Of a stretch of DNA of 64,000 nt, positions 43,483-61,666 are shown piece by piece. The notes beneath the pieces are model-generated. The model was not told the origin of the DNA. It saw nothing but the letters and a program-made list of their open reading frames with translations, and searched no databases. The first letter of the stretch is position 1. Every line of letters begins with the position of its first letter. The DNA is from Kaiparowitsia implicata GSE-PSE-MK54-09C (GTDB lineage Bacteria > Cyanobacteriota > Cyanobacteriia > Elainellales > Elainellaceae). The position numbers and the translations under genes were made by a program. The DNA lies in contig JAHHHI010000056.1 in the NCBI GenBank assembly GCA_019359435.1, forward strand, positions 62,001 to 126,000, in the 5' to 3' direction.

Positions 43483-46176
43483 GTGAGTAACGCTACAGAA
43501 GCGCGTAGCGTCGCTGTGCACAAATTTGTGACTAGGTGTGTGGAGATGATGGGACAACCGCAACGATCAATTTGGCTGGCAAAGGCCCTGGTGCTGGGGA
43601 CAGCGAGCTTTGTATCTCTGGGGATGGGGGTAGGCTGGGGAACTCCGGCTTTCGGAAATGAAGAAACGATAGATAGCGACGACGGGTATGTTGATGAGCC
43701 TAAATCTCCAGCCACCACGGTTGCTGAGTGGGTGGCTCAGGTCGAGGCAGCGCAGGTGCAGATTACGGGGGTCAGAGTCGAACCCACCGAAACGGGCCTA
43801 TCCATCGTGCTGGAAACAGCAGCGGGAGACTTGCCGCTGCCTGCGACTCAGGCCGTTGTGGGCAATGCCCTGACGACAGACATCTCCAATGCGGTGCTGG
43901 CGCTGCCGGAGGGGGAGATGTTTGAGCAGTTTGGCCCGGCTGAAGGCATTGCCTTAGTCAGCGTTATGAATAGGCCCGATGGGGGGGTACGGGTCTCCAT
44001 TACGGGAACCGATGCCCCGCCGCAGGCTGAGGTAAACACAGAAGCCGGGAATCTGGTGCTGAGCGTGGCACCGGGAGTGGCGGCGGCGGCGGCTCCTGGT
44101 GGTGATGATGCGATTCAGGTGGTGGTAACGGCAACCCGCACCGAGGAAGAGATTCAGGATGTGCCGCGCAGTGTGACAGTCATTACTCGGGAGGAGCTTG
44201 AGCAGCAGCTTAGCGTAAACCGTAATTTGGGGGATGTTCTGGGGCGTGTAGTGCCAGGGTTTGGGCCACCCAACGGCATTGGCAGCAGCATTGATTTTCA
44301 GTCGCTGCGAGGACGGGCTGCGTCGGTGCTGATCGACGGTGTGCCGATTTCTGAAAATGTGGGTCTAGGACGAGAGCTGCGATCGCTTGACCCTGCTGCC
44401 ATTGAACGGGTTGAGATTGTGCGCGGTCCCACGGCTCTCTATGGTGGTGAGGCCACAGGGGGTGTCATCAACATCATTACCCGCCAGCCCAGCGACGAGC
44501 GCCTCAGCCTGACCAGTGAAGTCGGGGGCGTGCTGTCGCTCACCAATGGCGAAGACAATTCGAGTGGTCTGCTGCGTCAGACCGTCTCTGGGCGAGAGGG
44601 CATCTTTAGCTATGACTTCACAGCCGCAGCAGAGTTTAACGGTGGGATTTTTGATGCTAACGGCGATCGCGTTTTCGTCCTGGCCGGGGACGGTAGCCTC
44701 AGCGATGCCGATACCGTCAATTTATTTGGCAAAATCCGCTTTGATTTTGATGACAATCAGCGCTTACAAATCACCGCCAACTATTTCAATGATCGCCGTC
44801 AGGCCTTCATTCTTGATCCGGCGGTCGCTGCGACCCCTGGCATTCAAGCGGCTAGGGCCATTAGGCTAGACGACATTGACATAGACGGTGGCTTGCCAGA
44901 ACGCGACAATACCCTGTTTAACCTCAGCTATACCCACGCTGACGTGTTGGACAGCGAGCTGCAAGCCCAGGCCTACTACCGCTACTACAGTGAAAACGGA
45001 GGCATTCCCAACGATGAGCGCGGTAACCCTCTCTTTGACAACATCGTCCGCACGCGGTGGAATTTTGAGCAGTGGGGGGGGCGGCTACAGCTCAACACAC
45101 CCCTAGCAGAAACCCTGAGCTTGCTGTGGGGGGCTGACTACGCTCGGGAGAGCAGCGCGCAACCCTTCGACATTTTTGACTCCGTTGCCTTCGACAATAG
45201 CGACGGACGTACCTTTCAACGCATTGATACCGGCACATTTGTCCCTCCTTCCGTCCTGGACGAGCTAGGGTTGTTTACCCAACTGCAATGGCAGCCTACT
45301 GAGCGATGGCAACTCAGTGGGGGTGTCCGCTATGAAAACATTAGTTTTAGCGTTGACGATTACACGACATCTAATGGTCAACCCATTCAGGGCGGTAACT
45401 TAAACTTCGATGATTTCGCCTTCAACGTCGGCACCGTATTTGATGCCACCGACAACATCAGCCTGTTTGCTAGCCTTGCCCAAGGCTTTTCGGTACCGGC
45501 TTTTGGTCGTGTGCTGCGGGTGCCGCCCACGGGTTTCGAGCAAGTCACTGATGCCCTAGATGTCACCCAGCCCCAAAAGGTTACAGAGTACGAGATTGGA
45601 GTACGTGGTAACTGGAATGGGGTACAGGCTTCCCTGGCAGCGTTTTACAACACGTCGGATCTAGGCACGTTTTTTGAGCAAGGGGTCGGAGGCGTGTTTG
45701 TGCCTGTGCGGGCGCCCGAGCGCATCTACGGAGTAGAAGCCACGGTCGATACCCAGATCAGTGATATCTGGCGCTTGGGCGGCAGCTTTAGCTGGTCTGA
45801 AGGGGAAAACGATCCGCTCGATGATGGCAACTTTATGGCTCTCTCCAGCGCTACGATTCAACCCTTCAAACTCAGCGCCTACGTAGAAAATGAAACCCTA
45901 CCCGGCTGGACAAATCGGCTCCAGGTGCTGTGGGTGGGCAGCCGCGATCGCGCCTTTAATGCCGATGTCGATTTGGTGCCCATTGGTAGTTACGCTGTGG
46001 TCGATTACATCAGCAGTATCGCGGTGGGCAGCGGCGTTATTCAAATTGGGGTTGAAAACCTGCTCAATACCCAGTACTTTCCAGTGGCGTCTCAGTTTCT
46101 GGCGGGCTTTGATGAGCAGTTTAACGTGGCGGGGCGGGGCCGTGCCATCAGCTTGCGCTACCAGGTCGATTGGTAA
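43483..46176 (+). CDS. TonB-dependent outer-membrane receptor with AMIN domain, cassette I
   Basis: An 897-residue receptor for a ferric siderophore or related chelate. A signal peptide (core SIWLAKALVLGTASFVSLGM) is followed by an AMIN domain (about residues 85-200, GVRVEPTETGLSIVLE, VVGNALTTDISNAVLALPEG). The TonB-box-like IQVVVTATRTEEEIQDVP and the plug (RVEIVRGPTALYGGEATGGV) come next, then a 22-strand barrel. The longest frame begins at a GTG; an ATG pair at 43546/43549 would put the signal peptide at the N-terminus and may be the real start. The plug type is closer to BtuB/FepA than in receptors II and III. The Suc_Fer gene starts 3 bases later. Confidence 0.92.
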   Translation: MSNATEARSVAVHKFVTRCVEMMGQPQRSIWLAKALVLGTASFVSLGMGVGWGTPAFGNEETIDSDDGYVDEPKSPATTVAEWVAQVEAAQVQITGVRVEPTETGLSIVLETAAGDLPLPATQAVVGNALTTDISNAVLALPEGEMFEQFGPAEGIALVSVMNRPDGGVRVSITGTDAPPQAEVNTEAGNLVLSVAPGVAAAAAPGGDDAIQVVVTATRTEEEIQDVPRSVTVITREELEQQLSVNRNLGDVLGRVVPGFGPPNGIGSSIDFQSLRGRAASVLIDGVPISENVGLGRELRSLDPAAIERVEIVRGPTALYGGEATGGVINIITRQPSDERLSLTSEVGGVLSLTNGEDNSSGLLRQTVSGREGIFSYDFTAAAEFNGGIFDANGDRVFVLAGDGSLSDADTVNLFGKIRFDFDDNQRLQITANYFNDRRQAFILDPAVAATPGIQAARAIRLDDIDIDGGLPERDNTLFNLSYTHADVLDSELQAQAYYRYYSENGGIPNDERGNPLFDNIVRTRWNFEQWGGRLQLNTPLAETLSLLWGADYARESSAQPFDIFDSVAFDNSDGRTFQRIDTGTFVPPSVLDELGLFTQLQWQPTERWQLSGGVRYENISFSVDDYTTSNGQPIQGGNLNFDDFAFNVGTVFDATDNISLFASLAQGFSVPAFGRVLRVPPTGFEQVTDALDVTQPQKVTEYEIGVRGNWNGVQASLAAFYNTSDLGTFFEQGVGGVFVPVRAPERIYGVEATVDTQISDIWRLGGSFSWSEGENDPLDDGNFMALSSATIQPFKLSAYVENETLPGWTNRLQVLWVGSRDRAFNADVDLVPIGSYAVVDYISSIAVGSGVIQIGVENLLNTQYFPVASQFLAGFDEQFNVAGRGRAISLRYQVDW

Positions 46177-46179
46177 AGA

Positions 46180-47142
46180 ATGATGTTTTGTGCTCAGGTC
46201 TCCCGCCAAGCTGGGGAAGATATCGTTGGCACTGCTGCCACCCACGCCGCCTACATCCTGATCGAATGGGCCCCGCCTTGGCCCGGTGATGAATTCCGTC
46301 GGCAGGAGAGCCTGCTGACTCCGTTTATCGATTACCTCCACGGGCTGGGTCGCTCGATTCGAGTCCTAGCGATTTACAATCCTCGGTTCTGGCAGCCAGA
46401 CCGCCATCGAATAGTCATATTTCAGCGTTCTACCACGGAGTTTTGCTACTTTCAGCGGTGGGAGTTTGAGGTTGACTCCGAAGCCGCCATTATCAGCAAA
46501 CTTCAGGGCTGGTTAGCGGGGAGACTGGCAGAACCCCCCGAGGCCGATCGCTCCCCTTGGCAAGACCTGCTCCTCTGCACCCACGGCAGCGTTGATCGCT
46601 GCTGCGCTCGCTGGGGTAAGCCTCTATTCCACGCAGCGGCTCTGGCTCTGGCGGCTCAGCCCAACCACCCTGTGCGGCTCTGGCAGGCTAGCCACTTTGG
46701 CGGACACCGTTTTGCCCCCACCGCGATCGCCTTTCCCGATGGTCGCTACTATGGTCGCCTCAACCTCGATACCCTAATGGCTATACTGACTCGCACTGGC
46801 CCCGTCACCGTTCTCCAAACCATCTATCGAGGCTGGGGCCTGTTGCCGTATCCGCTGCAAGCCATGGAGCGGCAAATTGTGCTTCAAAACGGTTTGTCTT
46901 GGCTGGATTTGCCAGTGCATCACCAAATTTTGCAGGAAGCTGAGCATGCCTGTCTGGGGCAGTTGCGCTATGCCCTTCCTGACGGAGCCGTTGTGGGCTA
47001 TCAGGCCCAGATTTCCTGGCACCCCGAAGATGCCCTGCATTTACTCGGTGACTGCGGCAATTCACAACTAGAGATGATTGAGCAATTCAGGGTTGAACAG
47101 CTTTGGGAGATGACTGGAATCCGTGTAGCCAGCAGTGGGTAA
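46180..47142 (+). CDS. Suc_Fer-family thioredoxin-like [2Fe-2S] protein, cassette I
   Basis: A 320-residue sucrase/ferredoxin-like protein. The probable cluster ligands are Cys133 and Cys142 (CTHGSVDRCC; Cys141 is adjacent) and His172 and His176 (SHFGGHRFAP). The C-x8-C/H-x3-H layout matches the Cys2His2 [2Fe-2S] site known from yeast Apd1/Aim32. No signal peptide is present, so the site is cytoplasmic. It is three bases after the receptor stop and before the binding protein. By position it could reduce ferric siderophore after import, the job of FhuF elsewhere; this is inference. Confidence 0.85.
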   Translation: MMFCAQVSRQAGEDIVGTAATHAAYILIEWAPPWPGDEFRRQESLLTPFIDYLHGLGRSIRVLAIYNPRFWQPDRHRIVIFQRSTTEFCYFQRWEFEVDSEAAIISKLQGWLAGRLAEPPEADRSPWQDLLLCTHGSVDRCCARWGKPLFHAAALALAAQPNHPVRLWQASHFGGHRFAPTAIAFPDGRYYGRLNLDTLMAILTRTGPVTVLQTIYRGWGLLPYPLQAMERQIVLQNGLSWLDLPVHHQILQEAEHACLGQLRYALPDGAVVGYQAQISWHPEDALHLLGDCGNSQLEMIEQFRVEQLWEMTGIRVASSG

Positions 47143-47234
47143 TGAAAGTAGCGGGTAACGGGATTTCGCTTTGCCATTGATTCTGCTTTCCTTTCCACAC
47201 GTCTCTCTTCCAGTCATGTTTCAGACATATCAAT

Positions 47235-48245
47235 ATGTTTCACCTATCCTTATATCGACGACGGCAGGTACTTTTGGCCGCCCTGACCTTGGCAGGTGCC
47301 TGGGCCTGTCGAAAGCAATCTCCTGAGTCAGCGATCGCGCCGACGCAAGCAGACTGTCGCTCGGTAGCCCACGACGCGGGTGAAACCGAAATTTGCCAGC
47401 AGCCCAAGCGAGTCGTGGCGCTGAGTATGCATATGCTCGATCTGCTGCTGGCGCTAGAACAGCAGCCCACTGGTTATGCCCCAGTAGACCCTGTCACAAC
47501 AGAGCGGTTTGACCGACCAGAACAGCAGATTCCCTATCTAGGCGACTACATCACTGGGCCGCCTGTCAATGTGGGCAGTCGTGGTGAACCCAGCCTGGAG
47601 ACACTGTTCAGTCTAAGACCAGATTTGATTTTGGGTGAGACGGGGTTTCACCAGGCGATATATCCTCAACTGGCTCAAATTGCACCGACCCTTTTGTTTG
47701 GCGGGGCGTTGCGAGACCAGTGGCAGCAGAGTCTTACCCCTATTGCTCAGGCCCTGAACCGCTCACAGCAGGCTACTCAAGTTATTGCTGAACATCGTCA
47801 GCATCTCGCAACCACCCGTATGGCCTTAGACGAGGTAGTGCAGACCTTGCCCCGTTGTTTGCTGTTGGGCACAGGCGATTTGCAGCAGCCAATTCAGGTT
47901 AGAACCGGTCGTGATTATGCGGGTGGGCTTTTGCAGCATGTTGGATTTACGTTGGCAACGCCATCGACGACGGTAATTGCGGCAGGAGAGGTGACTGTTT
48001 CCTTAGAGGCTATTCCCCAGATTGCTCCTGACTGGGTGATTGTGCAGGCATGGAGCACTGATACGAGCAATTCCCCCCTGGAAACAGTGCGGCGACAGTG
48101 GCAGCAAAGCCCGGTACTCCAGATGATGGCAGCATCTCAGGCTGAGCGTGTGTACTTCGTAGACTATCAGCTTTGGAGCATTAGCCGAGGGCCAATTGCG
48201 GCTGGGTTAATTTTGCAACAGCTTGAAGCACTGCTGCTGTCATGA
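47235..48245 (+). CDS. Ferric-siderophore periplasmic binding protein, cassette I
   Basis: A 336-residue FecB/FhuD-type (class III) substrate-binding lipoprotein. The N-terminus MFHLSLYRRRQVLLAALTLA carries a twin-Arg-like motif and ends with the lipobox LAGAWAC. Family blocks are PKRVVALSMHMLDLLLALEQ and FSLRPDLILGE, a typical chelate-binding two-lobe fold. The last codon overlaps the MFS start (ATGA), so the two are coupled. Its ABC permease and ATPase are not in the window. Confidence 0.9.
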   Translation: MFHLSLYRRRQVLLAALTLAGAWACRKQSPESAIAPTQADCRSVAHDAGETEICQQPKRVVALSMHMLDLLLALEQQPTGYAPVDPVTTERFDRPEQQIPYLGDYITGPPVNVGSRGEPSLETLFSLRPDLILGETGFHQAIYPQLAQIAPTLLFGGALRDQWQQSLTPIAQALNRSQQATQVIAEHRQHLATTRMALDEVVQTLPRCLLLGTGDLQQPIQVRTGRDYAGGLLQHVGFTLATPSTTVIAAGEVTVSLEAIPQIAPDWVIVQAWSTDTSNSPLETVRRQWQQSPVLQMMAASQAERVYFVDYQLWSISRGPIAAGLILQQLEALLLS

Positions 48246-49528
48246 ACCGGATATTCCTTCAAATTTGGTTTGGCCAGCTCATCTCCACCATCGGCAGCTA
48301 CATGACCGACTTTGCCCTCACCCTCTGGGCCTGGGAGATGACCGGCTCGGCCACAGCCTTGGCGCTGGTGAGCTTTTTTTCGCAGCTGGCGCGCATCCCC
48401 ATCACCCTGGTGGCGGGGTTAATTGTCGATCGCTTCAACCGCAAGCGGCTGATGATGTTGGGAGATGGGGTGGCGGCCCTGGCAACGGTGGGTATTGCCC
48501 TGCTGTATCTAGCCGACAGCCTGCATATCTGGCATTTATACGTAGCAGCCACCCTGAACGGCGGCTTTGGCCAGGTGCAGAGTTTGGCCTATCAAACCTC
48601 GATCTCGACCCTGGTGCCGCCCGCGCAACTGACGCGAGCCAACAGTATGAACTCGGCGGTGCATTACGGGGCTGCCATCTTTGGCCCAGCGATCGCCGGA
48701 GTGCTCTACCCGCTGGTGGGGCTGCTGGGGATTGCGGGGATTGATGTAGTGAGCTTTGGGGTGGCGATCGCCACTCTCCTCCTCTGCCACATCCCCCAGC
48801 CGCCGCCGCGCGCCGACCTCGAAACCCGATTTGCTAAGCTTACCTTTGGCTTTCGCGAAGTCTGGCGACAGCCCCGCCTGCGGGCCTTACTACTGATCAG
48901 CACCCTCTTCTGGTTCTTCCACGATCTTGGGGGCGCGGTCTACGACCCGATGATTTTGGCTCGCTCTGGCGGCAGCGCGGCGGCCTTGGCCAGTACGGCT
49001 TCGGCTGCGGGGATTGGCGGGGTTGTCGGGGCAATTGGGCTAAGTATTTGGGGTGGTCCCCGGCGACGGATGCGGGGCATGCTGGCTGGGTTCATCGGCG
49101 CAGGCCTGAGCAAGACGGTATTTGGACTGGGGCGATCGCCCCACATCTGGGTTCCGGCCCAGTTTTGCTCGTCGCTAAATTTTCCACTGCTGGGCAGTTC
49201 TGAAACCGCCACCTGGATGACCCAGATTGCCCCAGCGCAGCAGGGCCGTGTGTTTGCCGCCAATGCCCTGGTGCAGCAGATCGTGGGTGCTGGGGCCGCT
49301 CTCATGGCTGGCCCCCTAGCTGATCGCATCTTAGAGCCAGCCATGGCTCCCAAGGCGAGTCTCGCTAGAATATTTGGCGATTTGATAGGCACTGGCCCCG
49401 GCATCGGTATGGCACTCCTGTACGTAGCCTGTGCACTGGCGATGGCTGGGGTGGGTCTAGGAGGCTACTGGATGCCCAATCTCAGCACGCTAGGAGTTAG
49501 CCCGTCACAACCCAATGGCAGCACTTAG
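48242..49528 (+). CDS. MFS transporter, EntS-like, cassette I
   Basis: A 428-residue 12-helix major facilitator with the first loop motif GQLISTIGSYMTDFALTLWA and the A-motif-like DRFNRKRLMMLGD. EntS-type proteins export siderophores such as enterobactin; in cyanobacteria such genes also sit beside schizokinen-type loci. It is overlapped by the binding protein's stop. A dead near-copy is found at 41690. Whether it exports a siderophore or imports one cannot be told from the sequence. Confidence 0.85.
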   Translation: MNRIFLQIWFGQLISTIGSYMTDFALTLWAWEMTGSATALALVSFFSQLARIPITLVAGLIVDRFNRKRLMMLGDGVAALATVGIALLYLADSLHIWHLYVAATLNGGFGQVQSLAYQTSISTLVPPAQLTRANSMNSAVHYGAAIFGPAIAGVLYPLVGLLGIAGIDVVSFGVAIATLLLCHIPQPPPRADLETRFAKLTFGFREVWRQPRLRALLLISTLFWFFHDLGGAVYDPMILARSGGSAAALASTASAAGIGGVVGAIGLSIWGGPRRRMRGMLAGFIGAGLSKTVFGLGRSPHIWVPAQFCSSLNFPLLGSSETATWMTQIAPAQQGRVFAANALVQQIVGAGAALMAGPLADRILEPAMAPKASLARIFGDLIGTGPGIGMALLYVACALAMAGVGLGGYWMPNLSTLGVSPSQPNGST

Positions 49529-49681: not shown

Positions 49682-49730
49682 ATAAACTATTGTTTATAAG
49701 GACGACTCCTGGATCTCTCTAACTAATTCC

Positions 49731-50696
49731 ATGACCATTTCACTCTCACAGCAGGCTTATTGGGCGTTATTTGACACCGCTGACGGTCAAAGTGCTCAAG
49801 CGGCTGACGGGGTTGAGCAACTCACGCCCTATCCCGATCAGTTAGGTCGGGGGTATGGGCGAACCTTCGCGTTGCGGACTGGGCTCACCCTAGACATCGC
49901 CGACTACAGCCTGTTTGACGACCTCGTCATCACCTCCTGCGATCGCCAGCACCCGGTAGAGTACACCTTTAATCTGGCCACAGCCGGAACTTCTCAGGCC
50001 GAGCGCTATGGGGTTTGGGGCAGTGGCTTGGCACCAGGGGAAACCCAGCATCAGCCTGCTCATCAACGCTTGGCCTCGGTGAGTGTGCATCTAGAACCCG
50101 AGGTGTTTTGCGATTGGCTCAGGCTCAGTGACGATGAACTGCCCGCCCCCCTGCGATCGCTCGTGCGCCCTGCCGACCAGCAGTACTACGAGCGCTTTGG
50201 TACCCCTACGGCCTCAATGCAGATGGTGCTTCAGCAAATCTGGCACTGCCCCTACCAGGGCCTCACCCAGCGTCTATATCTAGACAGCAAAGTCTGGGAA
50301 CTGATGGCCCTGGTGCTGCATGAAATTAGTAACGGGGTCGATCCGGCTCCGGCTCAGGCGCTGCGGCCCGATGATGTCGAGCGCATTCGCCAGGGCGGCC
50401 AAATTTTGCAGACCCGCCTCGACCAACCGCCCTCGCTACTAGAACTAGCCCGTTTGATTGGCATTAACGACCACAAGCTAAAGCTGGGCTTTCGCCAAGT
50501 GTTTGGAACCACGGTTTTTGGCTATTTGCATGACCTGCGGCTGGAGCGATCGCGCCAATTGCTCGAATCGGGCGGTCTCAGCGTCACCGCTGCCGCCGAG
50601 GCCGTGGGTTTTGCCAGCCGAGGCCACTTTGCCGCCGCTTTTCGCCGCAAGTATGGCGTGAATCCGGGGGTCTATGCGCGGGGAAGAAGGGCGTAG
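49731..50696 (+). CDS. AraC-family regulator (PchR-like), cassette II, first copy
   Basis: A 321-residue regulator paralogous to the one at 42384. The C-terminal DNA-binding region is PPSLLELARLIGINDHKLKL, GFRQVFGTTVFGYLHDLRLE and AAEAVGFASRGHFAAAFRRK. The N-terminal half differs most from the others, as expected for different ligands. It begins with AUG after a short AT-rich leader and ends near 50700; the following AraC gene starts 234 bases later. Which receptor it serves is unclear. Confidence 0.87.
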   Translation: MTISLSQQAYWALFDTADGQSAQAADGVEQLTPYPDQLGRGYGRTFALRTGLTLDIADYSLFDDLVITSCDRQHPVEYTFNLATAGTSQAERYGVWGSGLAPGETQHQPAHQRLASVSVHLEPEVFCDWLRLSDDELPAPLRSLVRPADQQYYERFGTPTASMQMVLQQIWHCPYQGLTQRLYLDSKVWELMALVLHEISNGVDPAPAQALRPDDVERIRQGGQILQTRLDQPPSLLELARLIGINDHKLKLGFRQVFGTTVFGYLHDLRLERSRQLLESGGLSVTAAAEAVGFASRGHFAAAFRRKYGVNPGVYARGRRA

Positions 50697-50929: not shown

Positions 50930-51916
50930 ATGCCGCTAACTCTCTCCTCTCAAGATTGGGATGAGCTATGGAATGCTGACCTCAGCAAACGCGAGACCAC
51001 TGAGCAGCCCGATAGGTTTGAGGTGGCGCAAACCTGGACGGGTTCCCTAGAGCAGGGCTGCTGCCGAAGCCTAACGCTGCGGGATCTGTGGCTGACTATC
51101 GAAGAATCTCAGCTTAAGCAAGACATCATTTTTCAGTCAGAGCCCGCCAGCTGGGGGCCAGCCTCCAGCTTTTTTGTCGCCGGAACGATGAAAAGCTGCC
51201 ATCAAGGATTCACCGCCGAAAATATAGAATCTCCCGGCGGCCACTATCTAGAATGCTTACAATCTGCCCAAGAAATTGACTATTTCCCTAGTGGCGAGCA
51301 AATTGTGAGAATTCGGTTTGGCCTCAGCCCAGCGGCCCTGAGCCAATTTGGTGAAACCACCCACTTGCCCGGTGAGCTACAGCCCCTTGCCAACGGCAAC
51401 CCCGCCAGCTCGTTTTATCGCCAGGGGCAAACCACCGCCGATATGCAGGCCATTCTGCACCAAATTTTGCACTGCCCCTACCAGGGGCCGATCAAGCAAA
51501 TGTATTTAGAAGGCAAAGTATGGGAACTGGCGGCCCTGCAATTTGCCCAGTTTACTGAGCAAGACGAGCAAGACGGTTCCCCACGCCTAAAACCCGATGA
51601 CATTGAACGTCTGCACCACGCTAAGCGCATCTTAATGGAGCAGTTTGAGCAACCGCCCGCCCTCATGGCCCTGGCCAGACAGGTCGGGCTGAATGACTTC
51701 AAACTCAAACAGGGATTTCGCCAGGTCTTTGGCACCACAGTATTCGGCTATGTGCGGGAGTGCCGCCTACAGAAAGCACGCTTTCTATTAACTGACGGGA
51801 ATCTGAGCGTGCAACAGGTAGCCCATGCCGTCGGCTACGCCCAGTCCAGCTATTTTGCCAGAGCCTTTCGGCGCAAGTTTGGTGTAAATCCTAAGACTTA
51901 TCAGCTAGGGGGGTAG
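50930..51916 (+). CDS. AraC-family regulator (PchR-like), cassette II, second copy
   Basis: A 328-residue AraC protein in tandem with the one at 49731. The C-terminal domain PPALMALARQVGLNDFKLKQ, GFRQVFGTTVFGYVRECRLQ and AHAVGYAQSSYFARAFRRKF is nearly the family consensus. The start is ATG at 50930 after GCGATCGCT; there is no clear ribosome-binding site. It precedes receptor II by 252 bases, with a tandem-repeat element between. It is probably the regulator of that receptor. Confidence 0.88.
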   Translation: MPLTLSSQDWDELWNADLSKRETTEQPDRFEVAQTWTGSLEQGCCRSLTLRDLWLTIEESQLKQDIIFQSEPASWGPASSFFVAGTMKSCHQGFTAENIESPGGHYLECLQSAQEIDYFPSGEQIVRIRFGLSPAALSQFGETTHLPGELQPLANGNPASSFYRQGQTTADMQAILHQILHCPYQGPIKQMYLEGKVWELAALQFAQFTEQDEQDGSPRLKPDDIERLHHAKRILMEQFEQPPALMALARQVGLNDFKLKQGFRQVFGTTVFGYVRECRLQKARFLLTDGNLSVQQVAHAVGYAQSSYFARAFRRKFGVNPKTYQLGG

Positions 51917-51920
51917 GGTT

Positions 51921-52140: not shown

Positions 52141-52168
52141 TTTGTAAGCAGCTAGAGTGTGTGGTGTG

Positions 52169-54763
52169 ATGGCAAATTTTCGGTGTTTGGTTTGGCTGGC
52201 GGGGGTTATGGCCGTATTGGCGACGACCAATAACTTACCGGCCTTGGCGCAAGATGATGACTCCGGGGAGCAGGAGACGGAGGCCGCACTGCCCAGCAAG
52301 ACTCTGGTTGGTGCAAACCCCCAGGCTTTGTCTGACTTTACTGTGCCGCCAGCAATAACCGTGGATGAGTGGCTGACTCAAATCGCTCAGAGTGAACTCG
52401 TCCAGGTAACCGGTGTTGAAATCGACACGACAGAGGATGGGCTAACGGTAAATCTGCAAGCGACGGGTACCTTGGCGCAGCCCCGTGTGGCAACGGTGGG
52501 CAACGCGCTCATTGTTGAAATTTCCAATGCGGTGCTGGCTCTACCCCAGGGGCAAGAGTTTCAGCAGGCTGATCCGGCGGCGGGCATTGCGCTGCTGGCG
52601 GTAACTGCGTTGCCCAACAACCAGGTGCGGGTGGCCATTACTGGCTTAGATGCGCCCCCAACGGCAGATATCCAAACAGATGGCCAAAGCCTAATCTTGA
52701 GCGTACTGCCTGGAGTGGGAACTGACACCGCTGAGAATGAAGAGGCCATTCAGGTTGTTGTGACCGGAGAGCAAGAGGGATACGCACCCAGTAATGCCAC
52801 AACTGCAACAAGAACTGACACCCCGCTGCGAGATATTCCCCAATCGATTCAGGTGATTCCTCGTCAAGTGCTAGAGGATCAGGCTGCGACGGATTTGCAA
52901 GATATTACTCGCAATGTCAGTGGAGTTTTTCAGAGTAATACCTTTGGGGGCACCCTAGATCGCTTCCAAATCCGAGGCTTTGACTCAGACGTGTTTCTCC
53001 AGGATGGCTTTCGAGATCCGACATTTCGTATACGAGAAACAGCAAATATTGAACGGGTCGAGATATTAAAAGGCCCTGCATCGGTTTTATACGGCACCCT
53101 AGAACCGGGCGGCATTATCAATATTGTTACCAAACAACCTCTGGCAGAGCCCTATTATTCCTTAGCCGCATCCTTTGGTAGCTTCGGCTTGATTGAACCT
53201 TCCATTGATATATCCGGCCCTCTTAGTGAAGACGGAGAAGTGCTATACCGATTAAACACACTATATGAAAACCGAGATGTATTTCGAGACTTTGATCAAG
53301 ATGTAGAGCGTTTTTTTATTGCTCCAGTAATCAGTCTCGAAGTTGATGAGCGCACTGATCTGCTACTCAATTTTGAATATCTGAATGATGAGCGACCCTT
53401 TGACCGAGGGCTTGTGGCAGTTGGCAACGGCGTCGCCAACATACCGTTTGACCGCATTCTAGGTGAGCCAGACGATTTTGCCTTTACAGAATCAACTATC
53501 GCCAGCTACAGGCTTGAACATCGATTTAGTGAAAACTGGCAACTTCGTAATGAATTTCGATACAGTGCTCTTAACAGTCGGTCAACTAATGCACGACCCG
53601 TCAGCCTTGACGAAGATACAGGAATCCTTTCACGGGCCTGGGGAAACAACTCAGGCTTTGACAAAACCTTTGCCTTGCAGACCAACGTGGTTGGTGAATT
53701 TTCCACTGGATCAATTGACCATACCTTACTGCTTGGAATTGATCTTCTACGTATAGGCGAAAGCGCTGACAATCGCTTTGATTTTATTAGCGGTGCCCCC
53801 TCGATCAATATCTTTGCACCCGAATATGGCGTAGGTGTTCGCCCTGGAAGGGATCAATTACCTGAATTTGCTGTCTTTAGTACTCTCACTGACTCTCTCG
53901 GCATTTATGTACAAGACCAAATCGCTATCGCTGATAACTTAAGAATTTTAATAGGTGGGCGGTTTGATATCCTGAGTCAGGAGTCCTCTAGTAACTTCTT
54001 TTTCTCAGAGTTTGCGAGTGAGGATCAAAGTCAGCAGCAAAATGAAGCTTTCAGCCCCAGGCTTGGCATCCTTTACCGACCATTAGACTTCCTTTCTCTT
54101 TACGCTAGTTATAGTCGTTCATTTGCGCCTAACTCTGCCGTTGATGAGGGCGGTCAGTTACTAGAACCAGAACGGGGTACGCAGTTTGAGGCCGGTATTC
54201 GCGGCGATTTTTTCGACGGTAGACTAACGGCTAATCTTGCAGCTTTTGATCTTAGAAAGACCAATATTTCTAGCTTTGTGCCGCCAACGTTCTCCTTTGC
54301 TGAAGCCATCGGCGAGGTGCGTAGTCGCGGTATTGAGCTAGATGTCCTTGGAGAAATAACCGAAGGATGGAATATTATCGCCTCCTACAGCTACATTGAT
54401 GCAAAGGTTACTGAGGACTCAGGCAGCGAACTGGAGGGAAATCGTCCCCATGCTGTTCCTGAACATGCGCTGAGTTTATGGACTACTTACGAGATTCCCC
54501 AAGGCAGTTTGCAGGGATTAGGATTTGGTTTGGGCGCATTTCTTGTAGGCAATCGATTTGGAGATGATGCTAATACCTTCGAGGTAGGTAGCTACACTAG
54601 AGTTGATGCTTCTGTTTTTTATCGGCGCAATAACTGGCAAGCAGCAGTAAATTTCAAGAATCTGTTTGATATTGACTATATTGAAGGCCCTGCAAACGAT
54701 AGAACCCAAATTAATCCAGGAATTCCGTTTACGGTTCAAGCCACGGTAAGTGTGGAGTTTTAG
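52169..54763 (+). CDS. TonB-dependent siderophore receptor with AMIN domain, cassette II
   Basis: An 864-residue ferric-siderophore receptor. A signal peptide (CLVWLAGVMAVLATTNNLPA) is followed by an AMIN domain (about 65-190, VVATVGNALIVEISNAVLALPQ-like) and the TonB box IQVVVTGEQEG. The plug has DIPQSIQVIPRQVLEDQ and RVEILKGPASVLYGTLEPGG, and the C-terminus ends PGIPFTVQATVSVEF. The plug class is FhuA/FpvA-like, as in receptor III. The frame opens at a GTG four codons earlier; I take the ATG because GTGGTGTGATG also precedes receptor III's start. The DNA from about 52,950 on is noticeably richer in A+T than its neighbours. Confidence 0.93.
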   Translation: MANFRCLVWLAGVMAVLATTNNLPALAQDDDSGEQETEAALPSKTLVGANPQALSDFTVPPAITVDEWLTQIAQSELVQVTGVEIDTTEDGLTVNLQATGTLAQPRVATVGNALIVEISNAVLALPQGQEFQQADPAAGIALLAVTALPNNQVRVAITGLDAPPTADIQTDGQSLILSVLPGVGTDTAENEEAIQVVVTGEQEGYAPSNATTATRTDTPLRDIPQSIQVIPRQVLEDQAATDLQDITRNVSGVFQSNTFGGTLDRFQIRGFDSDVFLQDGFRDPTFRIRETANIERVEILKGPASVLYGTLEPGGIINIVTKQPLAEPYYSLAASFGSFGLIEPSIDISGPLSEDGEVLYRLNTLYENRDVFRDFDQDVERFFIAPVISLEVDERTDLLLNFEYLNDERPFDRGLVAVGNGVANIPFDRILGEPDDFAFTESTIASYRLEHRFSENWQLRNEFRYSALNSRSTNARPVSLDEDTGILSRAWGNNSGFDKTFALQTNVVGEFSTGSIDHTLLLGIDLLRIGESADNRFDFISGAPSINIFAPEYGVGVRPGRDQLPEFAVFSTLTDSLGIYVQDQIAIADNLRILIGGRFDILSQESSSNFFFSEFASEDQSQQQNEAFSPRLGILYRPLDFLSLYASYSRSFAPNSAVDEGGQLLEPERGTQFEAGIRGDFFDGRLTANLAAFDLRKTNISSFVPPTFSFAEAIGEVRSRGIELDVLGEITEGWNIIASYSYIDAKVTEDSGSELEGNRPHAVPEHALSLWTTYEIPQGSLQGLGFGLGAFLVGNRFGDDANTFEVGSYTRVDASVFYRRNNWQAAVNFKNLFDIDYIEGPANDRTQINPGIPFTVQATVSVEF

Positions 54764-54765
54764 AC

Positions 54766-55734
54766 ATGGGAGGAATCAAATTACAAGAATGCTATCGTAT
54801 AGTTTGCTTTAGCTTTCTGAGTCTTTGTGTACTCGTAGTTTTCTCATCTTGCGGAAACAATCGCCAATCAACCAAAATTCCTGCTTTTCCTCAGAAAATT
54901 TCGTCAGATTGTCGGATGATAGAGCATACATTGGGAGAAACCTGTGTACCAATTAATCCAAATCGAGTAATCGCTTTGGATGATTGCACTTTAGAACCCA
55001 TGCTTGCTCTTAATCTTCAACCTGTTGGTGCTCCTGTTAGTAACGTTAATATTCCCAACCAGGGTGATTTAAGTTCTATTCAAGACACTGGTTCTCCACC
55101 TAATCTAGAAACGATTTTTTCTCTTAAACCAGACTTGATTTTAGGCTGCGCCTATTCACAAGATGTATACAAACAAGCCACTCAGATTGCCCCTACTATT
55201 ATTGCACCGATTGAGTCAAGTGCCGACTGGAAGTCAGTGTTGTTTTTGGTAGCAGACACTGTAGGAAAAACTGATAAAGCAGAGCAATTAATGACAACCT
55301 ACACGAAGCGAATAGAAGCGCTACAATCTAAACTTGGTAAGCGCATTAATATTACTAAGATTTCAGTCATTCGGATTCATCCAGGACATATCTCTCTATA
55401 TGCTAAAGATGTATTTATCGGTACTCTGTTAGCTGATGTTGGGTTACCTCGCCCTAAATCTCAAAATCGAGATATTCCTGCTATTGATATTAGTAAAGAA
55501 AATATCCATGATGCGGATGGAGATGTGATTTTTGTTTGGGTTTATGGGAGTAATAGACAGCTGTTAGAAGCATCAGAAGCAGCACTAAAAAAACTCCAAT
55601 CTGATCCTCTATGGCAAGAATTGGATGCGGTCAAATTTGGCAAAGTATATATTGTTCCAGAATATTGGATTGGAGCAGGCCCACTGTCTGCAAATGCTGT
55701 TATTGACGACTTATTTAAGTATCTGGTGAATTAA
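54766..55734 (+). CDS. Ferric-siderophore binding lipoprotein, cassette II
   Basis: A 322-residue FecB/FhuD-type binding protein. A hydrophobic N-terminus (about residues 10-28) ends with the lipobox VVFSSC. Family signatures include NPNRVIALDDCTLEPMLALN, FSLKPDLILGC and IVPEYWIGAGPLSANAVIDD. It shares the start RxIxHxxGETCVP with the protein at 60243. It follows the receptor by 2 bases and the Suc_Fer gene follows 2 bases later, so a single transcript is likely. The gene is A+T-rich compared with the surrounding DNA. Confidence 0.9.
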   Translation: MGGIKLQECYRIVCFSFLSLCVLVVFSSCGNNRQSTKIPAFPQKISSDCRMIEHTLGETCVPINPNRVIALDDCTLEPMLALNLQPVGAPVSNVNIPNQGDLSSIQDTGSPPNLETIFSLKPDLILGCAYSQDVYKQATQIAPTIIAPIESSADWKSVLFLVADTVGKTDKAEQLMTTYTKRIEALQSKLGKRINITKISVIRIHPGHISLYAKDVFIGTLLADVGLPRPKSQNRDIPAIDISKENIHDADGDVIFVWVYGSNRQLLEASEAALKKLQSDPLWQELDAVKFGKVYIVPEYWIGAGPLSANAVIDDLFKYLVN

Positions 55735-55736
55735 AA

Positions 55737-56768
55737 ATGGTGACAACCAATACTATAAAGCCGTGTCACTTTTGTGCTGAGATCTCTAAGAGAAATGGCG
55801 AAGATCCAATTGGTTCGGCTGGTAAGTATGATCAATTCCTTCTGATTGAAGCACCCCTACCTTGGTCAGAGCAAATTTGGTTGAAGGCAGGTTCAATGCC
55901 TCAAGGGGTAATTGACGCATTTCAATTTGTCTGGGATCGTAATATCAAATTCAGACCCCTGGCGATCTCGTCTGATCAAAATGCTAACGCCAAAACCGGG
56001 TTGGTTCGTGTACTCTATTTCTCGCGTCCTTCAGCACAATTTTCCATTTTTGAGCGGCAAGAATACCTGATTCCCAAAGACGATCTATCCCATTTGGTGA
56101 TGGCATTACTTAACCAGCCTGAGCAATTATCTGAATTCCAAAAGTTTCGGCAGGATAATAAGTTGATGCGCGATCTTTTGGTCTGTACCCACGGAAGTCA
56201 TGATGTGTCGTGTGGTCGTTTTGGATATCCACTGTATGGGACATTAAAGCAGGACTATGCAGGCACCAATCTCCGCATCTGGCGGTGTTCCCACTTTGGC
56301 GGACATCAGTTTGCGCCAACCCTGCTAGACATGCCCGAAGGCCGATACTGGGGACATTTAGAACCTGAAATTTTGGATTTGCTCGTTTACCGCCAGGGTT
56401 CCGTTGCTGATTTACGGTCGTTCTACCGAGGTTGGGCCGGTCTCGCTTGGGCCGAACAAATCGTCGAACGAGAGATTTGGATCAAAGAAGGGTGGGAGTG
56501 GCTGACCTATTTGAAATCAGTAGAAACCCTGGCTATTTCAGATCCAGAAGCCGACTACCCTGACTGGGCAGACGTGCGTATTCATTTTTGTAGCCCCGAT
56601 AAAAACTATAGCGGCACCTATGAGGCTCGTATCGAAGCCTACAAAGAAGTTGAGACTATGTGGAACTCGGGCGATCGCACCTCAATCGAAACCATCAAAC
56701 AGTATCGGGTGTCTCGTTTAGTCAAACGTGAGCATTCACGACAAAACTTGACTAGACAGCTACCCTAA
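55737..56768 (+). CDS. Suc_Fer-family thioredoxin-like [2Fe-2S] protein, cassette II
   Basis: A 343-residue homologue of the protein at 46180. Likely ligands are Cys150 and Cys159 (VCTHGSHDVSCGRFG) and His186 and His190 (CSHFGGHQFAP), again C-x8-C and H-x3-H. The N-terminus has an extra Cys pair, CHFC (residues 10 and 13). Position after the binding protein and receptor supports a reductive step in iron release. The 3' end overlaps the convergent Uma2 gene by nine bases. Confidence 0.87.
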   Translation: MVTTNTIKPCHFCAEISKRNGEDPIGSAGKYDQFLLIEAPLPWSEQIWLKAGSMPQGVIDAFQFVWDRNIKFRPLAISSDQNANAKTGLVRVLYFSRPSAQFSIFERQEYLIPKDDLSHLVMALLNQPEQLSEFQKFRQDNKLMRDLLVCTHGSHDVSCGRFGYPLYGTLKQDYAGTNLRIWRCSHFGGHQFAPTLLDMPEGRYWGHLEPEILDLLVYRQGSVADLRSFYRGWAGLAWAEQIVEREIWIKEGWEWLTYLKSVETLAISDPEADYPDWADVRIHFCSPDKNYSGTYEARIEAYKEVETMWNSGDRTSIETIKQYRVSRLVKREHSRQNLTRQLP

Positions 56769-57515: not shown

Positions 57516-57663
57516 GGTCAACACCTAGTGTTCTGACCAACGTTCTACGTGACCCCATTGTAGCGCTAGGCCAAGCCAGCCCAAAAACTCCGGGGGGCGA
57601 TCGCAAAAACTCCGCCTAGGGATCATCTTGCTCTGAAGCCTACCCCCCTATCGAGTATTTTAT

Positions 57664-57678
57664 TGAGAAGTATTCCCA
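57664..57678. promoter_or_regulatory. Operator candidate TGAGAAGTATTCCCA upstream of receptor III
   Basis: The left arm TGAGAA and centre GTA match the consensus; the right arm TTCCCA is one base off TTCTCA. It ends 59 bases before the ATG. It closely resembles the site at 63204. Confidence 0.55.
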
Positions 57679-57737
57679 TTTGCCTTGAAGCCTTCAACGG
57701 CTAAGGCAGTGGTCTTGATCAATTAACAGGTGGTGTG

Positions 57738-60224
57738 ATGGGAGTTCGATTGCAGCGGTTGGTGTGGTTGGCGGGATGGCTGGCGCTGGTGCCGATATCG
57801 GCGCAGGCAGAAACGGCGTTGTCTTTACAGGATATGGCCCAGCCCAGCGGGCAGGCAGCGGATTTGGCCCAGGGGGCGACGCAAATTACCGACGTGCGGA
57901 TCGAGCCGGAGGGCGAGGGGCTGCGGCTGGTGCTGGATGCCGATGGGGCACTGGGGGAACCTGTGACCTCAGTGGTGGGCAATGCCCTGGTGGCCGAGAT
58001 AGCCAATGCGGTGCTGACATTGCCCGAGGGGGAGAGCTTTGAGCAGTTTGACCCCGCTGAGGGCATTGCCCTGGTGAGCGTGACCAGCCTGGAAGGCAAC
58101 CGGGTGCGGGTTTCGATCACGGGTAGCGACGGGCCGCCAGCGGTGAATGTGAGTACTGGGGCGGCGGGTTTGGTGCTGGGCATTGCCCCTGGTGTGGGTT
58201 TGGCCTCTGGCGATGACGACACCATCCGCATTGGGGTGACAGGGGCGGGCGACGAGGGCTACGCGCCACGCGACTCCAGCACTGCCACCCGTACAGATAC
58301 GCCCCTGCGCGATACCCCACGCACCATTCAGATCATTCCCGAACAGGTGCTGGAGGATCAGGGCATTACTCGTGTAGGCGATGCCGTGCGCAACGTCAGC
58401 AGCGTAGTGCAGGATGGTGGCTTTGGCAGCACCACTGACCAGCTCAATATTCGCGGCTTTTTTACCGACGGTATCTTTATCGATGGCTTTAGGGGCGATG
58501 GCTCGGGGTTTGCCGAAACCGCCAATGTAGAACGCATTGAGGTGCTGCGGGGGCCAGCCTCGGTGCTGTTTGGCAACACCCAGCCCAGCGGCATCATTAA
58601 CCTGGTCACCAAGCGACCCTTAGCGGAGCCGTTCTATAGCCTAGACCTTCAGGCGGGCAGCTACGGGCTGATTCGCCCCACGGTCGATGTGACCGGGCCG
58701 CTGAATGCGGATCGCACCATTCTCTACCGCTTTAACGGAGCTTACGAACGTGCCAATGGCTTCCGCGACTTCGACCAAACCATCAACCGCTTTTTTGCCG
58801 CGCCTTCGCTGGAGTTTCGTCTCAGCGATGCCACCACTCTCAATCTAGACGCCACCTACCGCAATGACGAACGCCCCTTTGATCGAGGGTTTTTGGCCAC
58901 CGGACGGGGCATTGTAAACACTCCGCTGAGCCGCATTTTTGGGGAGCCCGACGATGTCAGTCGGGTGCAAGAATACGGGGCCGGATACCGCCTGGAGCAC
59001 AAGTTTAGTGACAGTTGGCAGGTGCGCAACCAGTTTCGGCTGCTGTCAACCGATACCTTTGACTATCGGGCCGAGCCGCTGGCCCTGGACGAGGCTACGG
59101 GCATTTTAACCCGCAACTTTCGCTCCAACGACGACATTTCTGAGGTCTACTCGCTACAAACCGATTTGCTGGGCAACTTTTTTACTGGCTCAGTTGAGCA
59201 CGACCTGCTAATTGGGCTAGATCTGCGGCGACAGACTTTCGGCGGCACCCAGCGACGACTACCAGACGGGCTGACGCCCAGCCTTGATATCTTTAACCCG
59301 GTCTATAACGTCATTGAGCGCCCTCCCCTCAGCGCCCTGACCAATGAGGTGCGAAACAACAGCGATCGCACCAATGCCCTTGGCCTTTTTGTACAGGATC
59401 AGGTTCAAATCTTGGACAACCTGATCGTAGTCGCTGGAGGACGGTTTGACGTGGTTTCGCAATACAGCCTCGATAACCAAACGGGTGACGATTCTGGCCA
59501 GGATGTGACGGCGTTTACGCCCACCGTTGGCGTGGTCTATCAGCCGATTGAGCCGATTTCGCTCTATGCCAACTTTGCGCGATCGTTTCAGCCCAACTTT
59601 GGCACCGACGTCAACGACAACTTCTTACCCCCCGAGCGCGGCACCCAGTACGAGGTGGGTGTTCAGGCGGCCATCAATGATCGCCTGACGGCGTCCCTGG
59701 CGGCCTACAACATCACCAAAACCAACCTGGCCACCACCGACCCCGCCAACCCCGACTTCAGCATCCCCATTGCTGAACAGCGCAGCCGAGGCATTGATCT
59801 AAATGTCGCGGGCGAAATTCTGCCTGGCTGGAATGTGATTGCCTCCTATGGCTACATCGATGCCGCCTACACCCAGGAATTTTTTGGCCTACCCCCAGGT
59901 AGCCGGGTGCAAAACGTCCCCAACCACACCGCCAGCCTGTGGAGCACCTACGAGATTCAGAGCGGCGATTTGCAAGGGCTGGGCTTTGGGGCCGGGGTAT
60001 TTTATATCGGCGATCGCGCCGGAGATTTCGAAGACACCTTTGATTTACCCAGCTACCTACGCACCGATGCGGCGGTGTTTTACCGTCGCAACAACTGGCG
60101 GGCCGCCATCAATGTGCAGAACCTGTTCGACGTGCGCTATTTCAGCTCTAACAACTTTGGCCGGGTGGCGATCGAGCCGGGGGAACCCCTCAGCATTGTT
60201 GGCTCGCTGTCGGTTGATTTTTAA
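57738..60224 (+). CDS. TonB-dependent siderophore receptor with AMIN domain, cassette III
   Basis: An 828-residue receptor. A signal peptide (LQRLVWLAGWLALVPISAQA) is followed by an AMIN domain (about 45-150, ITDVRIEPEGEGLRLVLDAD; VVGNALVAEIANAVLTLPEG). The TonB-box-like region IRIGVTGAGDEGY and the plug RIEVLRGPASVLFGNTQPSG follow; the barrel ends EPGEPLSIVGSLSVDF. It is closer to receptor II than to I. ATG at 57738, with GTG one codon upstream; AGGTGGTG precedes it. The gene is G+C-rich, unlike receptor II. Confidence 0.93.
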   Translation: MGVRLQRLVWLAGWLALVPISAQAETALSLQDMAQPSGQAADLAQGATQITDVRIEPEGEGLRLVLDADGALGEPVTSVVGNALVAEIANAVLTLPEGESFEQFDPAEGIALVSVTSLEGNRVRVSITGSDGPPAVNVSTGAAGLVLGIAPGVGLASGDDDTIRIGVTGAGDEGYAPRDSSTATRTDTPLRDTPRTIQIIPEQVLEDQGITRVGDAVRNVSSVVQDGGFGSTTDQLNIRGFFTDGIFIDGFRGDGSGFAETANVERIEVLRGPASVLFGNTQPSGIINLVTKRPLAEPFYSLDLQAGSYGLIRPTVDVTGPLNADRTILYRFNGAYERANGFRDFDQTINRFFAAPSLEFRLSDATTLNLDATYRNDERPFDRGFLATGRGIVNTPLSRIFGEPDDVSRVQEYGAGYRLEHKFSDSWQVRNQFRLLSTDTFDYRAEPLALDEATGILTRNFRSNDDISEVYSLQTDLLGNFFTGSVEHDLLIGLDLRRQTFGGTQRRLPDGLTPSLDIFNPVYNVIERPPLSALTNEVRNNSDRTNALGLFVQDQVQILDNLIVVAGGRFDVVSQYSLDNQTGDDSGQDVTAFTPTVGVVYQPIEPISLYANFARSFQPNFGTDVNDNFLPPERGTQYEVGVQAAINDRLTASLAAYNITKTNLATTDPANPDFSIPIAEQRSRGIDLNVAGEILPGWNVIASYGYIDAAYTQEFFGLPPGSRVQNVPNHTASLWSTYEIQSGDLQGLGFGAGVFYIGDRAGDFEDTFDLPSYLRTDAAVFYRRNNWRAAINVQNLFDVRYFSSNNFGRVAIEPGEPLSIVGSLSVDF

Positions 60225-60242
60225 AGTTTTGAGCTTTAGTTA

Positions 60243-61277
60243 ATGCCCATGCATGGTTACAGAATGACTCGACCACTCTTTTGCAGCAGCCTAGGGACTA
60301 GTAGGTGGCGATCGCTCATCTTAGGACTGGTTACATTTCTCGCTGTAGTCATCCTGGGCAGCGCTTGTACACCCCATGTTTCTACTCAAAATGGCGGAAT
60401 TGCCAGCGCCGACTGTCGAGTCATCCGTCATGCCAGAGGCGAAACCTGTGTGCCCAATAACCCTCAGCGCGTTGTTGTTTTGGGTGCTTTAGATTATGCC
60501 CTGAGCTTAGGCATTAAACCGATCGGTAGCGATTGGTTAAGTGCTCAAGATATTCACCTCAGCGACATGCTCGACGGCATTGAAGACGTGGGCGGCAACG
60601 ATGCTCCTAACATCGAAAAGATCTTGACCCTCAACCCAGACTTCATTATTGGTGCAGATTATGTTTCAGCTAACTACGGTGCCCTATCTAAAATTGCCCC
60701 CACAGTCTTGATTGCCTACGAGCACAGCGGGCAGTGGAAGGAGTTTTTTATGAGTTTTGCAGAGGCGCTAGGCAAGACCGCAGCAGCCGAACAGGTGATA
60801 AACAATTACCAGGCTCGGACAGAAGAATTTAAGGCACAAATGGGAAGCCGTGCGGCTGAAATTGACGTATCAATTGTGCGGGTGTATCCAAGCTATGTGA
60901 ACCTGTACCTCAAAGACTCATTTTGTGGAACAGTGGTTGCCGATGCCGGACTGTCTCGCCCCCCTGCCCAAGATTTGACCGCAGCGGAAGCCAGCACTTT
61001 GTTTGACAATCCAATTCAATACACTGTCAGTCGCGAAAAAATGCCCGATGCCGATGGTGACGCCATATTTCTTTGGACCTACGGATTTCAAGATGACGTT
61101 GCCCAGCAGGCTCAGAGTCAGAAAGAAAAGTTAGTAGCTGATCCGGTATGGTCTACCTTAAGTGCGGTTCAAAATGGGCAGGTTTACGAAGTTCCTTCCT
61201 ACTGGATTGGGGATGGCCCGATCGCAGCCAATGCTGTCCTCGACGACCTATTCAAATATCTTGTGGAGCCATCGTAG
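60243..61277 (+). CDS. Ferric-siderophore binding lipoprotein, cassette III
   Basis: A 344-residue FecB/FhuD-type protein. A hydrophobic segment ends in the lipobox ILGSAC (about residue 43). Signatures are NPQRVVVLGALDYALSLGIK, LTLNPDFIIGADYV and VPSYWIGDGPIAANAVLDDL. It lies 18 bases after receptor III and 2 bases before the DUF1636 gene, so they form one operon. A short insertion (AEASTLFDNPIQYTVS) is not seen in cassette II's protein. Confidence 0.9.
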   Translation: MPMHGYRMTRPLFCSSLGTSRWRSLILGLVTFLAVVILGSACTPHVSTQNGGIASADCRVIRHARGETCVPNNPQRVVVLGALDYALSLGIKPIGSDWLSAQDIHLSDMLDGIEDVGGNDAPNIEKILTLNPDFIIGADYVSANYGALSKIAPTVLIAYEHSGQWKEFFMSFAEALGKTAAAEQVINNYQARTEEFKAQMGSRAAEIDVSIVRVYPSYVNLYLKDSFCGTVVADAGLSRPPAQDLTAAEASTLFDNPIQYTVSREKMPDADGDAIFLWTYGFQDDVAQQAQSQKEKLVADPVWSTLSAVQNGQVYEVPSYWIGDGPIAANAVLDDLFKYLVEPS

Positions 61278-61279
61278 CC

Positions 61280-61666
61280 ATGCCCGACCAGCTGATTGTG
61301 TGCCAAAGCTGCGGCTTTACCGCCGATGAAGAAAAACGCGACGGGGAGACCGGTGGCGATCACCTGCTCAAGCAGTTGCAAGCTTTGTACGAGCAGTGGC
61401 CCCGCAGAGATGAGCTAGCGATCGCACCCACCGGGTGCCTGTGCATTTGTGAGCAGCCCTGTGCGATCGCCTACGTGGGCACCGGCAAGCCCACCTATCT
61501 CTTTACCGACCTCGACCCCACCACCTGCGCCGCCGACCTGCTCACCGCCGCCGAACTCTACCTCGACAGCAAAGACGGCATGGTGCCCCTATTTAAGCTG
61601 CCTGATGATCTGCAATCTCACAGAACAGCGCGAATTCCGCCTGCGCCTTCAGGGAGTCGGGCATAG
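61280..61666 (+). CDS. DUF1636-family Cys-rich metal-binding protein, cassette III
   Basis: A 128-residue small protein. Cys8 and Cys11 (VCQSC) and Cys53, 55, 57 and 61 (TGCLCICEQPC) suggest a thioredoxin-like [2Fe-2S] or other metal centre. The frame continues upstream into the binding protein, but the ATG at 61280 after ATCGTAGCC and family length favour this start. It takes the place occupied by Suc_Fer proteins in cassettes I and II. A redox role in iron release is inferred from that. Confidence 0.82.
   Translation: MPDQLIVCQSCGFTADEEKRDGETGGDHLLKQLQALYEQWPRRDELAIAPTGCLCICEQPCAIAYVGTGKPTYLFTDLDPTTCAADLLTAAELYLDSKDGMVPLFKLPDDLQSHRTARIPPAPSGSRA

Follow-up and report, generated by a model that had tools for sequence, protein, structure and literature searches.

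The window analysed here, a stretch of 64,000 nucleotides from the cyanobacterium Kaiparowitsia implicata GSE-PSE-MK54-09C (GCA_019359435.1, contig JAHHHI010000056.1, positions 62,001 to 126,000), is part of contig C56 in a genome of 6.7 Mb and carries three siderophore cassettes, in each of which a TonB-dependent receptor (TBDT) and a FecB-type binding protein are encoded together with one candidate redox protein. Profile matches of the window proteins placed cassettes I, II and III on the plus strand, at the positions given by an initial annotation. Cassette I consists of an AraC-type regulator (42384..43382; PF12833, 80.2 bits), a TBDT with an N-terminal AMIN domain (43483..46176; PF00593, PF07715 and PF11741, with RhtA as the best NCBIfam match and a TIGR01783 score slightly below cut-off), a Suc_Fer protein (46180..47142; PF06999, 84.2 bits against a cut-off of 34.9), a FecB-type siderophore-binding protein (47235..48245; PF01497, 81.3 bits) and an MFS transporter with a weak match to EntS (48242..49528; PF07690, 98.4 bits). 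A further AraC-type regulator (49731..50696, plus strand; PF12833, 73.0 bits) separates it from cassette II, which has its own AraC-type regulator (50930..51916; PF12833, 83.2 bits) followed by a TonB-dependent siderophore receptor (52157..54763; TIGR01783, 455.5 bits, cut-off 223.5), a FecB-type protein (54766..55734; PF01497, 82.4 bits) and a second Suc_Fer (55737..56768; PF06999, 99.9 bits, same cut-off of 34.9). Cassette III comprises a TonB-dependent siderophore receptor (57735..60224; TIGR01783, 436.3 bits, cut-off 223.5), a FecB-type protein (60243..61277; PF01497, 73.5 bits) and a DUF1636 protein (61280..61666; PF07845, 128.6 bits, cut-off 31.6). The DUF1636 start was set at the ATG at 61280, directly after the FecB stop; the open reading frame called from 61148 is too long, its Pfam domain starting only at residue 49. 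In all three receptors an AMIN domain lies N-terminal to the plug.

Because the genes within the cassettes overlap or are separated by gaps of 2-92 bp, the cassettes are likely to be operons, and the arrangement claimed initially, of one receptor, one binding protein and one redox protein repeated three times with Suc_Fer in two cassettes and DUF1636 in the third, was borne out by profiles scoring over their cut-offs. The accompanying claim of a single operon slot holds across the surveyed operons described below, where the partners occupy the same place, and is loose in the window itself, with Suc_Fer directly after the receptor in cassette I and the redox gene after FecB in cassettes II and III.

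The Suc_Fer proteins show the pattern of two cysteines and two histidines that had been likened to yeast Apd1. The motif C-x8-C-x(24-75)-H-x-G-G-H is exact in both window proteins (CTHGSVDRCC...HFGGH in cassette I), with C133, C142, H172 and H176 as candidate ligands in cassette I and, from the alignment, C150, C159, H186 and H190 in cassette II. The four ligand positions of C-x8-C...H-x3-H are invariant in 34/34 full-length cyanobacterial Suc_Fer proteins, most of them with the exact H-x-G-G-H. In Apd1 and Aim32, a motif of this type binds a [2Fe-2S] cluster through two cysteines and two histidines (PMC11138216; PMC11126956). In a structure model of the cassette II protein (mean pLDDT 84), residues 142-235 resembled thioredoxin-like ferredoxins (1m2a, Z 7.2, aligned to residues 142-233 with rmsd 2.4 over 86; 5abr, Z 6.4), and residues 237-335 resembled NTF2/cystatin-like folds (4r80 at Z 8.7, many others at 5-7); all these scores are middling, and the second domain offers a lead only. 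These matches came from a second aligner; Foldseek with the same model returned nothing significant, and the Suc_Fer profile found only chance-level matches among PDB sequences (1m2b/1f37 at E about 2). Suc_Fer is accordingly described here as a putative thioredoxin-like [2Fe-2S] ferredoxin, presumably cytosolic, with no signal peptide seen by eye.

Read from position 61280, the DUF1636 protein contains seven cysteines (residues 8, 11, 53, 55, 57, 61 and 83), where the initial annotation had counted six. Five of these (8, 11, 53, 57 and 61) are conserved in the family and kept in both of its clades. Only the second half of the resulting arrangement, C8-x2-C11...C53-x3-C57-x3-C61, fits the canonical thioredoxin-like ferredoxin spacing of C-x10-12-C-x29-34-C-x3-C, and an extra cysteine has been proposed to stand in for the missing one (PMC4520260). 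The structure model of the protein (mean pLDDT 83) matched the Rhodobacter capsulatus thioredoxin-like ferredoxin 9jn8 with Z 17.1 over 116 residues at 34% identity and the Aquifex aeolicus ferredoxin 1m2b with Z 11.0, and the sequence profile matched 9jn8 at E 3.9e-17, as an earlier study had predicted (PMC4520260). By modelled fold, DUF1636 is a thioredoxin-like ferredoxin; it too shows no signal peptide by eye and is presumably cytosolic. Profile-profile comparison detected no sequence relation between DUF1636 and Suc_Fer, and their shared fold rests on the separate structure matches. According to these matches the two partners share a fold and differ in ligands, and both differ from FhuF, which is a helical bundle (PMC8068687); neither the Suc_Fer nor the DUF1636 proteins of the window matched the FhuF profile (PF06276).

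Profile matches over cut-off were collected from a sample of 96 Cyanobacteriia genomes. Suc_Fer was present in 23 genomes, DUF1636 in 48, the TBDT plug in 58, and FhuF and the flavin siderophore-interacting protein SIP (PF04954) in three each. One of the three FhuF genomes is counted for the relic in the window; the two FhuF matches in genome G018 lie in open frames of 609 and 632 amino acids, long enough that they could be IucA/IucC-type synthetases rather than reductases. The near-absence of FhuF from the class (3/96) fits the idea that it has been replaced, but is no correlation. Profiles built from proteins of the window served to annotate the surroundings of 37 Suc_Fer and 68 DUF1636 genes. 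A same-strand TBDT was found within 5 kb of 21/37 Suc_Fer genes against 0.51 expected from receptor density, an enrichment of about 40-fold, which rules out a chance neighbourhood. The initial annotation had named such a survey as a test capable of refuting it; the outcome was strongly positive. Several of the Suc_Fer genes without a TBDT neighbour lie on contig ends or beside nonribosomal peptide synthetase (NRPS) genes. Across the class survey, 14/34 full-length Suc_Fer proteins lie outside a siderophore context, which limits a role confined to siderophores. In the DUF1636 tree, a cassette clade of 24 rows comprises 21 with both TBDT and FecB, one with FecB only and two with neither, and all 11 genomes holding a member of this clade have TBDTs (p 0.003).

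The association extends to plasmid records and to a second phylum. On Deinococcus plasmids, 13/13 Suc_Fer genes are inside operons with iron-siderophore binding proteins (FecB), FecCD-type permeases and an ATPase, and in the encoded proteins the CTHG...C and HFGGH motifs are retained, as is a C-terminal tail about as long. On plasmid pAQ7 of Picosynechococcus PCC 7002 both families adjoin siderophore receptors, DUF1636 in the run AraC-TBDT-FecB-DUF1636-ABC and Suc_Fer after ExbB-ExbD beside a TBDT and FecB. Counter-examples of Suc_Fer without an iron context were seen in Shinella, Tsukamurella and Nostoc C057. A mere drift of functionally unconnected redox genes among mobile iron islands and plasmids would agree with the occurrence of cassettes on plasmids and in gene islands, with the decay of several partner genes and with the many cassettes that have no partner. 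The enrichment of about 40-fold, the gaps of 2-4 bp or overlaps, the 13/13 count in the second phylum and the dedicated DUF1636 clade make such hitch-hiking very improbable.

The two families behave as alternatives within one operon place. In the whole genome from which the window was taken, ten TBDT plugs were found; four of the receptors have Suc_Fer in the operon, four have DUF1636, two have neither and none has both, so that exactly one partner is present in 8/10. Two of the four Suc_Fer genes are damaged, both on C56 beyond the window and both adjoining an intact receptor: the third (L046:15687-16890) is split between two frames ahead of the C-terminal domain, and the fourth (L048:13595-14349) is broken by stops and frame changes. 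A cassette on contig C15 has an intact DUF1636 gene followed by two degenerate copies (L050:10580-10909 and G000:C15:37806-38120). Only one FecCD permease pair scored over cut-off in the genome, on C4, from which we infer that the binding proteins may have one importer in common or rely on the MFS proteins. SIP had no match in this genome, nor among the Pfam matches of the cassette proteins.

A receptor-centred tally was made in 15 genomes, picked partly for holding cassettes, and gave 111 TBDT rows, 75 of them with FecB in the operon. The partner in these 75 operons was DUF1636 in 17, Suc_Fer in 14, FhuF in two, a PepSY protein in one and none of the four in 41; two kinds were never found together. 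One locus seen twice (L018/L145) had appeared to be a double operon and was rejected, as its DUF1636 gene is part of another, broken cassette that lies past AraC pieces of opposite orientation. In the order TBDT-FecB-X-MFS, X is Suc_Fer in L025 and L029, DUF1636 in L069 and L070 and an intact FhuF in L071 (AraC-TBDT-FecB-FecB-FhuF-MFS), with AraC preceding the TBDT in L025 and L029 as it does in L071. In the order TBDT-X-FecB-MFS, X is Suc_Fer in window cassette I and L022 or a FhuF remnant in L202, with AraC upstream in cassette I and L202. When the partners were mapped onto a tree of 72 receptors, 17 changes of label were needed, against 32 with shuffled labels, indicating that the partner is partly inherited and often swapped. 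In this tree L020 (Suc_Fer) and L058 (DUF1636) are sisters, L121 and L028 (Suc_Fer) fall inside DUF1636 groups, L071 (FhuF) groups with the Suc_Fer receptors L125 and L031, and L050 (DUF1636), from the window's own genome, pairs with L205 (PepSY). Mutual exclusion in the 75 operons and swaps on close receptors both uphold the view that Suc_Fer and DUF1636 are alternatives. In L195 and L205, TonB receptors alternate with PepSY genes in arrays without FecB, which may represent a third way of accomplishing iron release, this one in the periplasm.

FhuF itself has left traces directly upstream of the cassette I regulator. The broken FhuF-like gene reported there proved to be part of a whole decayed cassette (40013-42215): a C-terminal TBDT stub (40013..40177, plus strand; tblastn with the receptors, 50-58% identity over 55-56 amino acids, best E 1.9e-14), a fhuF fragment with in-frame stops (40318..40851, plus strand; open part 40435-40758; PF06276, 30.6 bits, cut-off 25.2; tblastn with the intact L071 FhuF, E 3e-22) and N- and C-terminal pieces of an MFS transporter whose middle is deleted (41690..42215, plus strand; 75% and 42% identical to the cassette I MFS). 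A Uma2-family gene (40949..41650, minus strand; PF05685, 102.9 bits) sits between the fhuF and MFS remnants, and a second Uma2-family gene (56760-57524, minus strand) overlaps the end of the cassette II Suc_Fer by 9 bp. The related locus L202 has a comparable truncated fhuF remnant.

Taken together, Suc_Fer and the siderophore-clade DUF1636 proteins are proposed to be cytosolic thioredoxin-like [2Fe-2S] ferredoxins acting at the release of iron from ferric siderophores, either reducing the ferric siderophore directly or feeding electrons to that step. In the favoured reading, given a probability of roughly two in three, the ferric siderophore would enter the cell by way of the receptor, the binding protein of FecB type and an importer in the inner membrane; the [2Fe-2S] cluster would take an electron from the cell's ferredoxin/NADPH pool and pass it on to the siderophore-bound Fe(III), setting Fe(II) free. 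In Escherichia coli this job of iron release is done by FhuF. Since an operon appears to need at most one such protein, FhuF, Suc_Fer and DUF1636 are proposed to replace one another. A stronger version, in which Suc_Fer would be a self-contained third class of ferric-siderophore reductase, is offered tentatively and at less than even odds: its C-terminal NTF2/cystatin-like domain would hold the ferric siderophore next to a [2Fe-2S] cluster with bis-histidinyl ligation, the potential of which drops on proton loss, DUF1636 would form a fourth class, and the two would together have replaced FhuF and SIP across Cyanobacteria and Deinococcus.

Several observations weigh against the proposed role in iron release. 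A P450-linked Suc_Fer clade of 28 rows has one, well-supported origin, and the larger DUF1636 clade (44/68 rows) contains zero TBDT+FecB operons; both suggest general electron-transfer or metal proteins with a varying acceptor. The 41/75 operons without any of the four partners make the redox gene an optional module, iron release not needing one in the operon. The zero overlap of DUF1636 and Suc_Fer is a modest statistic, with a chance probability of 0.018 when relatedness is ignored, and the resemblance of Suc_Fer to 1m2a, judged by its middling Z alone, is weak, although strengthened by the ligand match. Finally, Suc_Fer adjoins a PepSY reductase-like gene in L140 and L184, which a sole reductase would not need.

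The loci of the P450-linked clade (L132, L133, L135, L137, L138, L141, L142 and about 20 further Nostocales loci) have Suc_Fer in a biosynthetic cluster that encodes an NRPS along with two P450s, a short-chain dehydrogenase and an exporter of MATE-like type, and the Suc_Fer of these Nostocales clusters is likely a P450 electron donor. The general role of Suc_Fer would on this evidence be electron transfer, with other acceptors possible. The main doubt is therefore whether the protein acts on the siderophore itself or passes electrons to another enzyme, and the PepSY genes leave room for a carrier role. If Suc_Fer and DUF1636 were electron carriers only, their clusters would pass electrons to a membrane reductase, a PepSY protein or a siderophore-modifying or -degrading enzyme and never to the ferric siderophore, as would suit two ferredoxin folds, the ordinary carrier role of the P450-associated clade and the adjoining PepSY genes. 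We regard this as unlikely, because the cassettes often consist of just a receptor, a binding protein and a ferredoxin, with no conserved acceptor co-encoded, and because the ferredoxin stands in the place of FhuF, which is a [2Fe-2S] protein too and is counted among the ferric-siderophore reductases (PMC8068687).

The recurring neighbours of the larger DUF1636 clade, named by sequence inspection, are a CobW-type GTPase (a cluster in 17 genomes; annotated as a GTP-binding protein in Trichormus) and a HupE-like protein (nine genomes), at loci including L052, L054, L055, L057, L061, L073-L075, L079, L108 and L109. In six genomes, all from one family, members of this clade have as their neighbour a TonB receptor that is divergent and shorter, and on a Sphingobium plasmid a DUF1636 gene lies beside a receptor and a cobyrinate diamide synthase. 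A cobalt or cobalamin redox role is suggested for the larger clade. The CobW-type GTPases and HupE-like permeases, together with the cysteine richness of the proteins, could also indicate metal handling, in which the proteins would handle iron or Fe-S clusters as chaperones or regulators, binding or sensing the released iron without redox work. For the cassette proteins this is improbable, as they share ligand pattern and fold with redox ferredoxins (PMC11138216) and a chaperone would not be expected to replace a reductase such as FhuF. One genome with 28 receptor plug matches (L062, L104, L068, L020) has eleven DUF1636 matches over cut-off, of which several lie within a single stretch of 20 kb and some are truncated: here the module has expanded and decayed.

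Earlier work had already described the fold, the families and the concept of a [2Fe-2S] siderophore reductase. FhuF, of the FSR family, is a cytosolic [2Fe-2S] ferric-siderophore reductase (PMC8068687) that, like Suc_Fer and DUF1636, is encoded with siderophore uptake genes in the same operon positions (L071 and, as remnants, L202 and the window); it differs from them as a helix bundle with a CC-x10-C-x2-C site and no matching sequence. Yeast Apd1 and Aim32, bis-histidinyl thioredoxin-like ferredoxins, share the Suc_Fer family name and motif, whereas they have no siderophore-operon context and the bacterial proteins have 125-175 more residues after the ligand motif; the function of Apd1 is listed as unknown (PMC11126956). 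The thioredoxin-like [2Fe-2S] ferredoxins of Aquifex (1m2a), Azotobacter (FeSI, 5abr) and Rhodobacter capsulatus (9jn8) have the fold predicted for DUF1636 and for residues 142-235 of Suc_Fer, but their canonical C-x10-12-C...C-x3-C is C-x2-C...C-x3-C-x3-C in DUF1636, and Suc_Fer swaps two cysteines for histidines. The PepSY periplasmic ferri-siderophore reductases FoxB and HiuB are likewise encoded beside a TonB receptor (PMC12424826), as are PepSY genes in some cyanobacterial receptor operons; unlike the cassette proteins they are membrane proteins working in the periplasm, and PepSY can stand beside Suc_Fer. SIP also releases iron by reduction in the cytosol (PMC8068687), but is a flavoprotein, absent from the window's genome and from 93/96 Cyanobacteriia.

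A literature search found no report linking Suc_Fer or sucrase ferredoxin to siderophores and none on 9jn8, weak evidence of novelty as subscription journals were little covered; with the same incomplete coverage, no earlier assignment of Suc_Fer and the DUF1636 subclade to iron release, to exchange with FhuF or to a second phylum was found. In 2009, authors who surveyed the receptors of Anabaena remarked that the products of most genes in these putative operons had no known function (PMC2771747). With TonB receptors in 58/96 genomes against FhuF and SIP in 3/96 each, the way in which cyanobacteria free imported iron is a gap for which Suc_Fer and DUF1636 are candidate enzymes. The exchange of partners suggests that iron release is the task of an interchangeable module whose choice is separate from that of the receptor, and the proposed function, if true, would give the Apd1 family a bacterial role.

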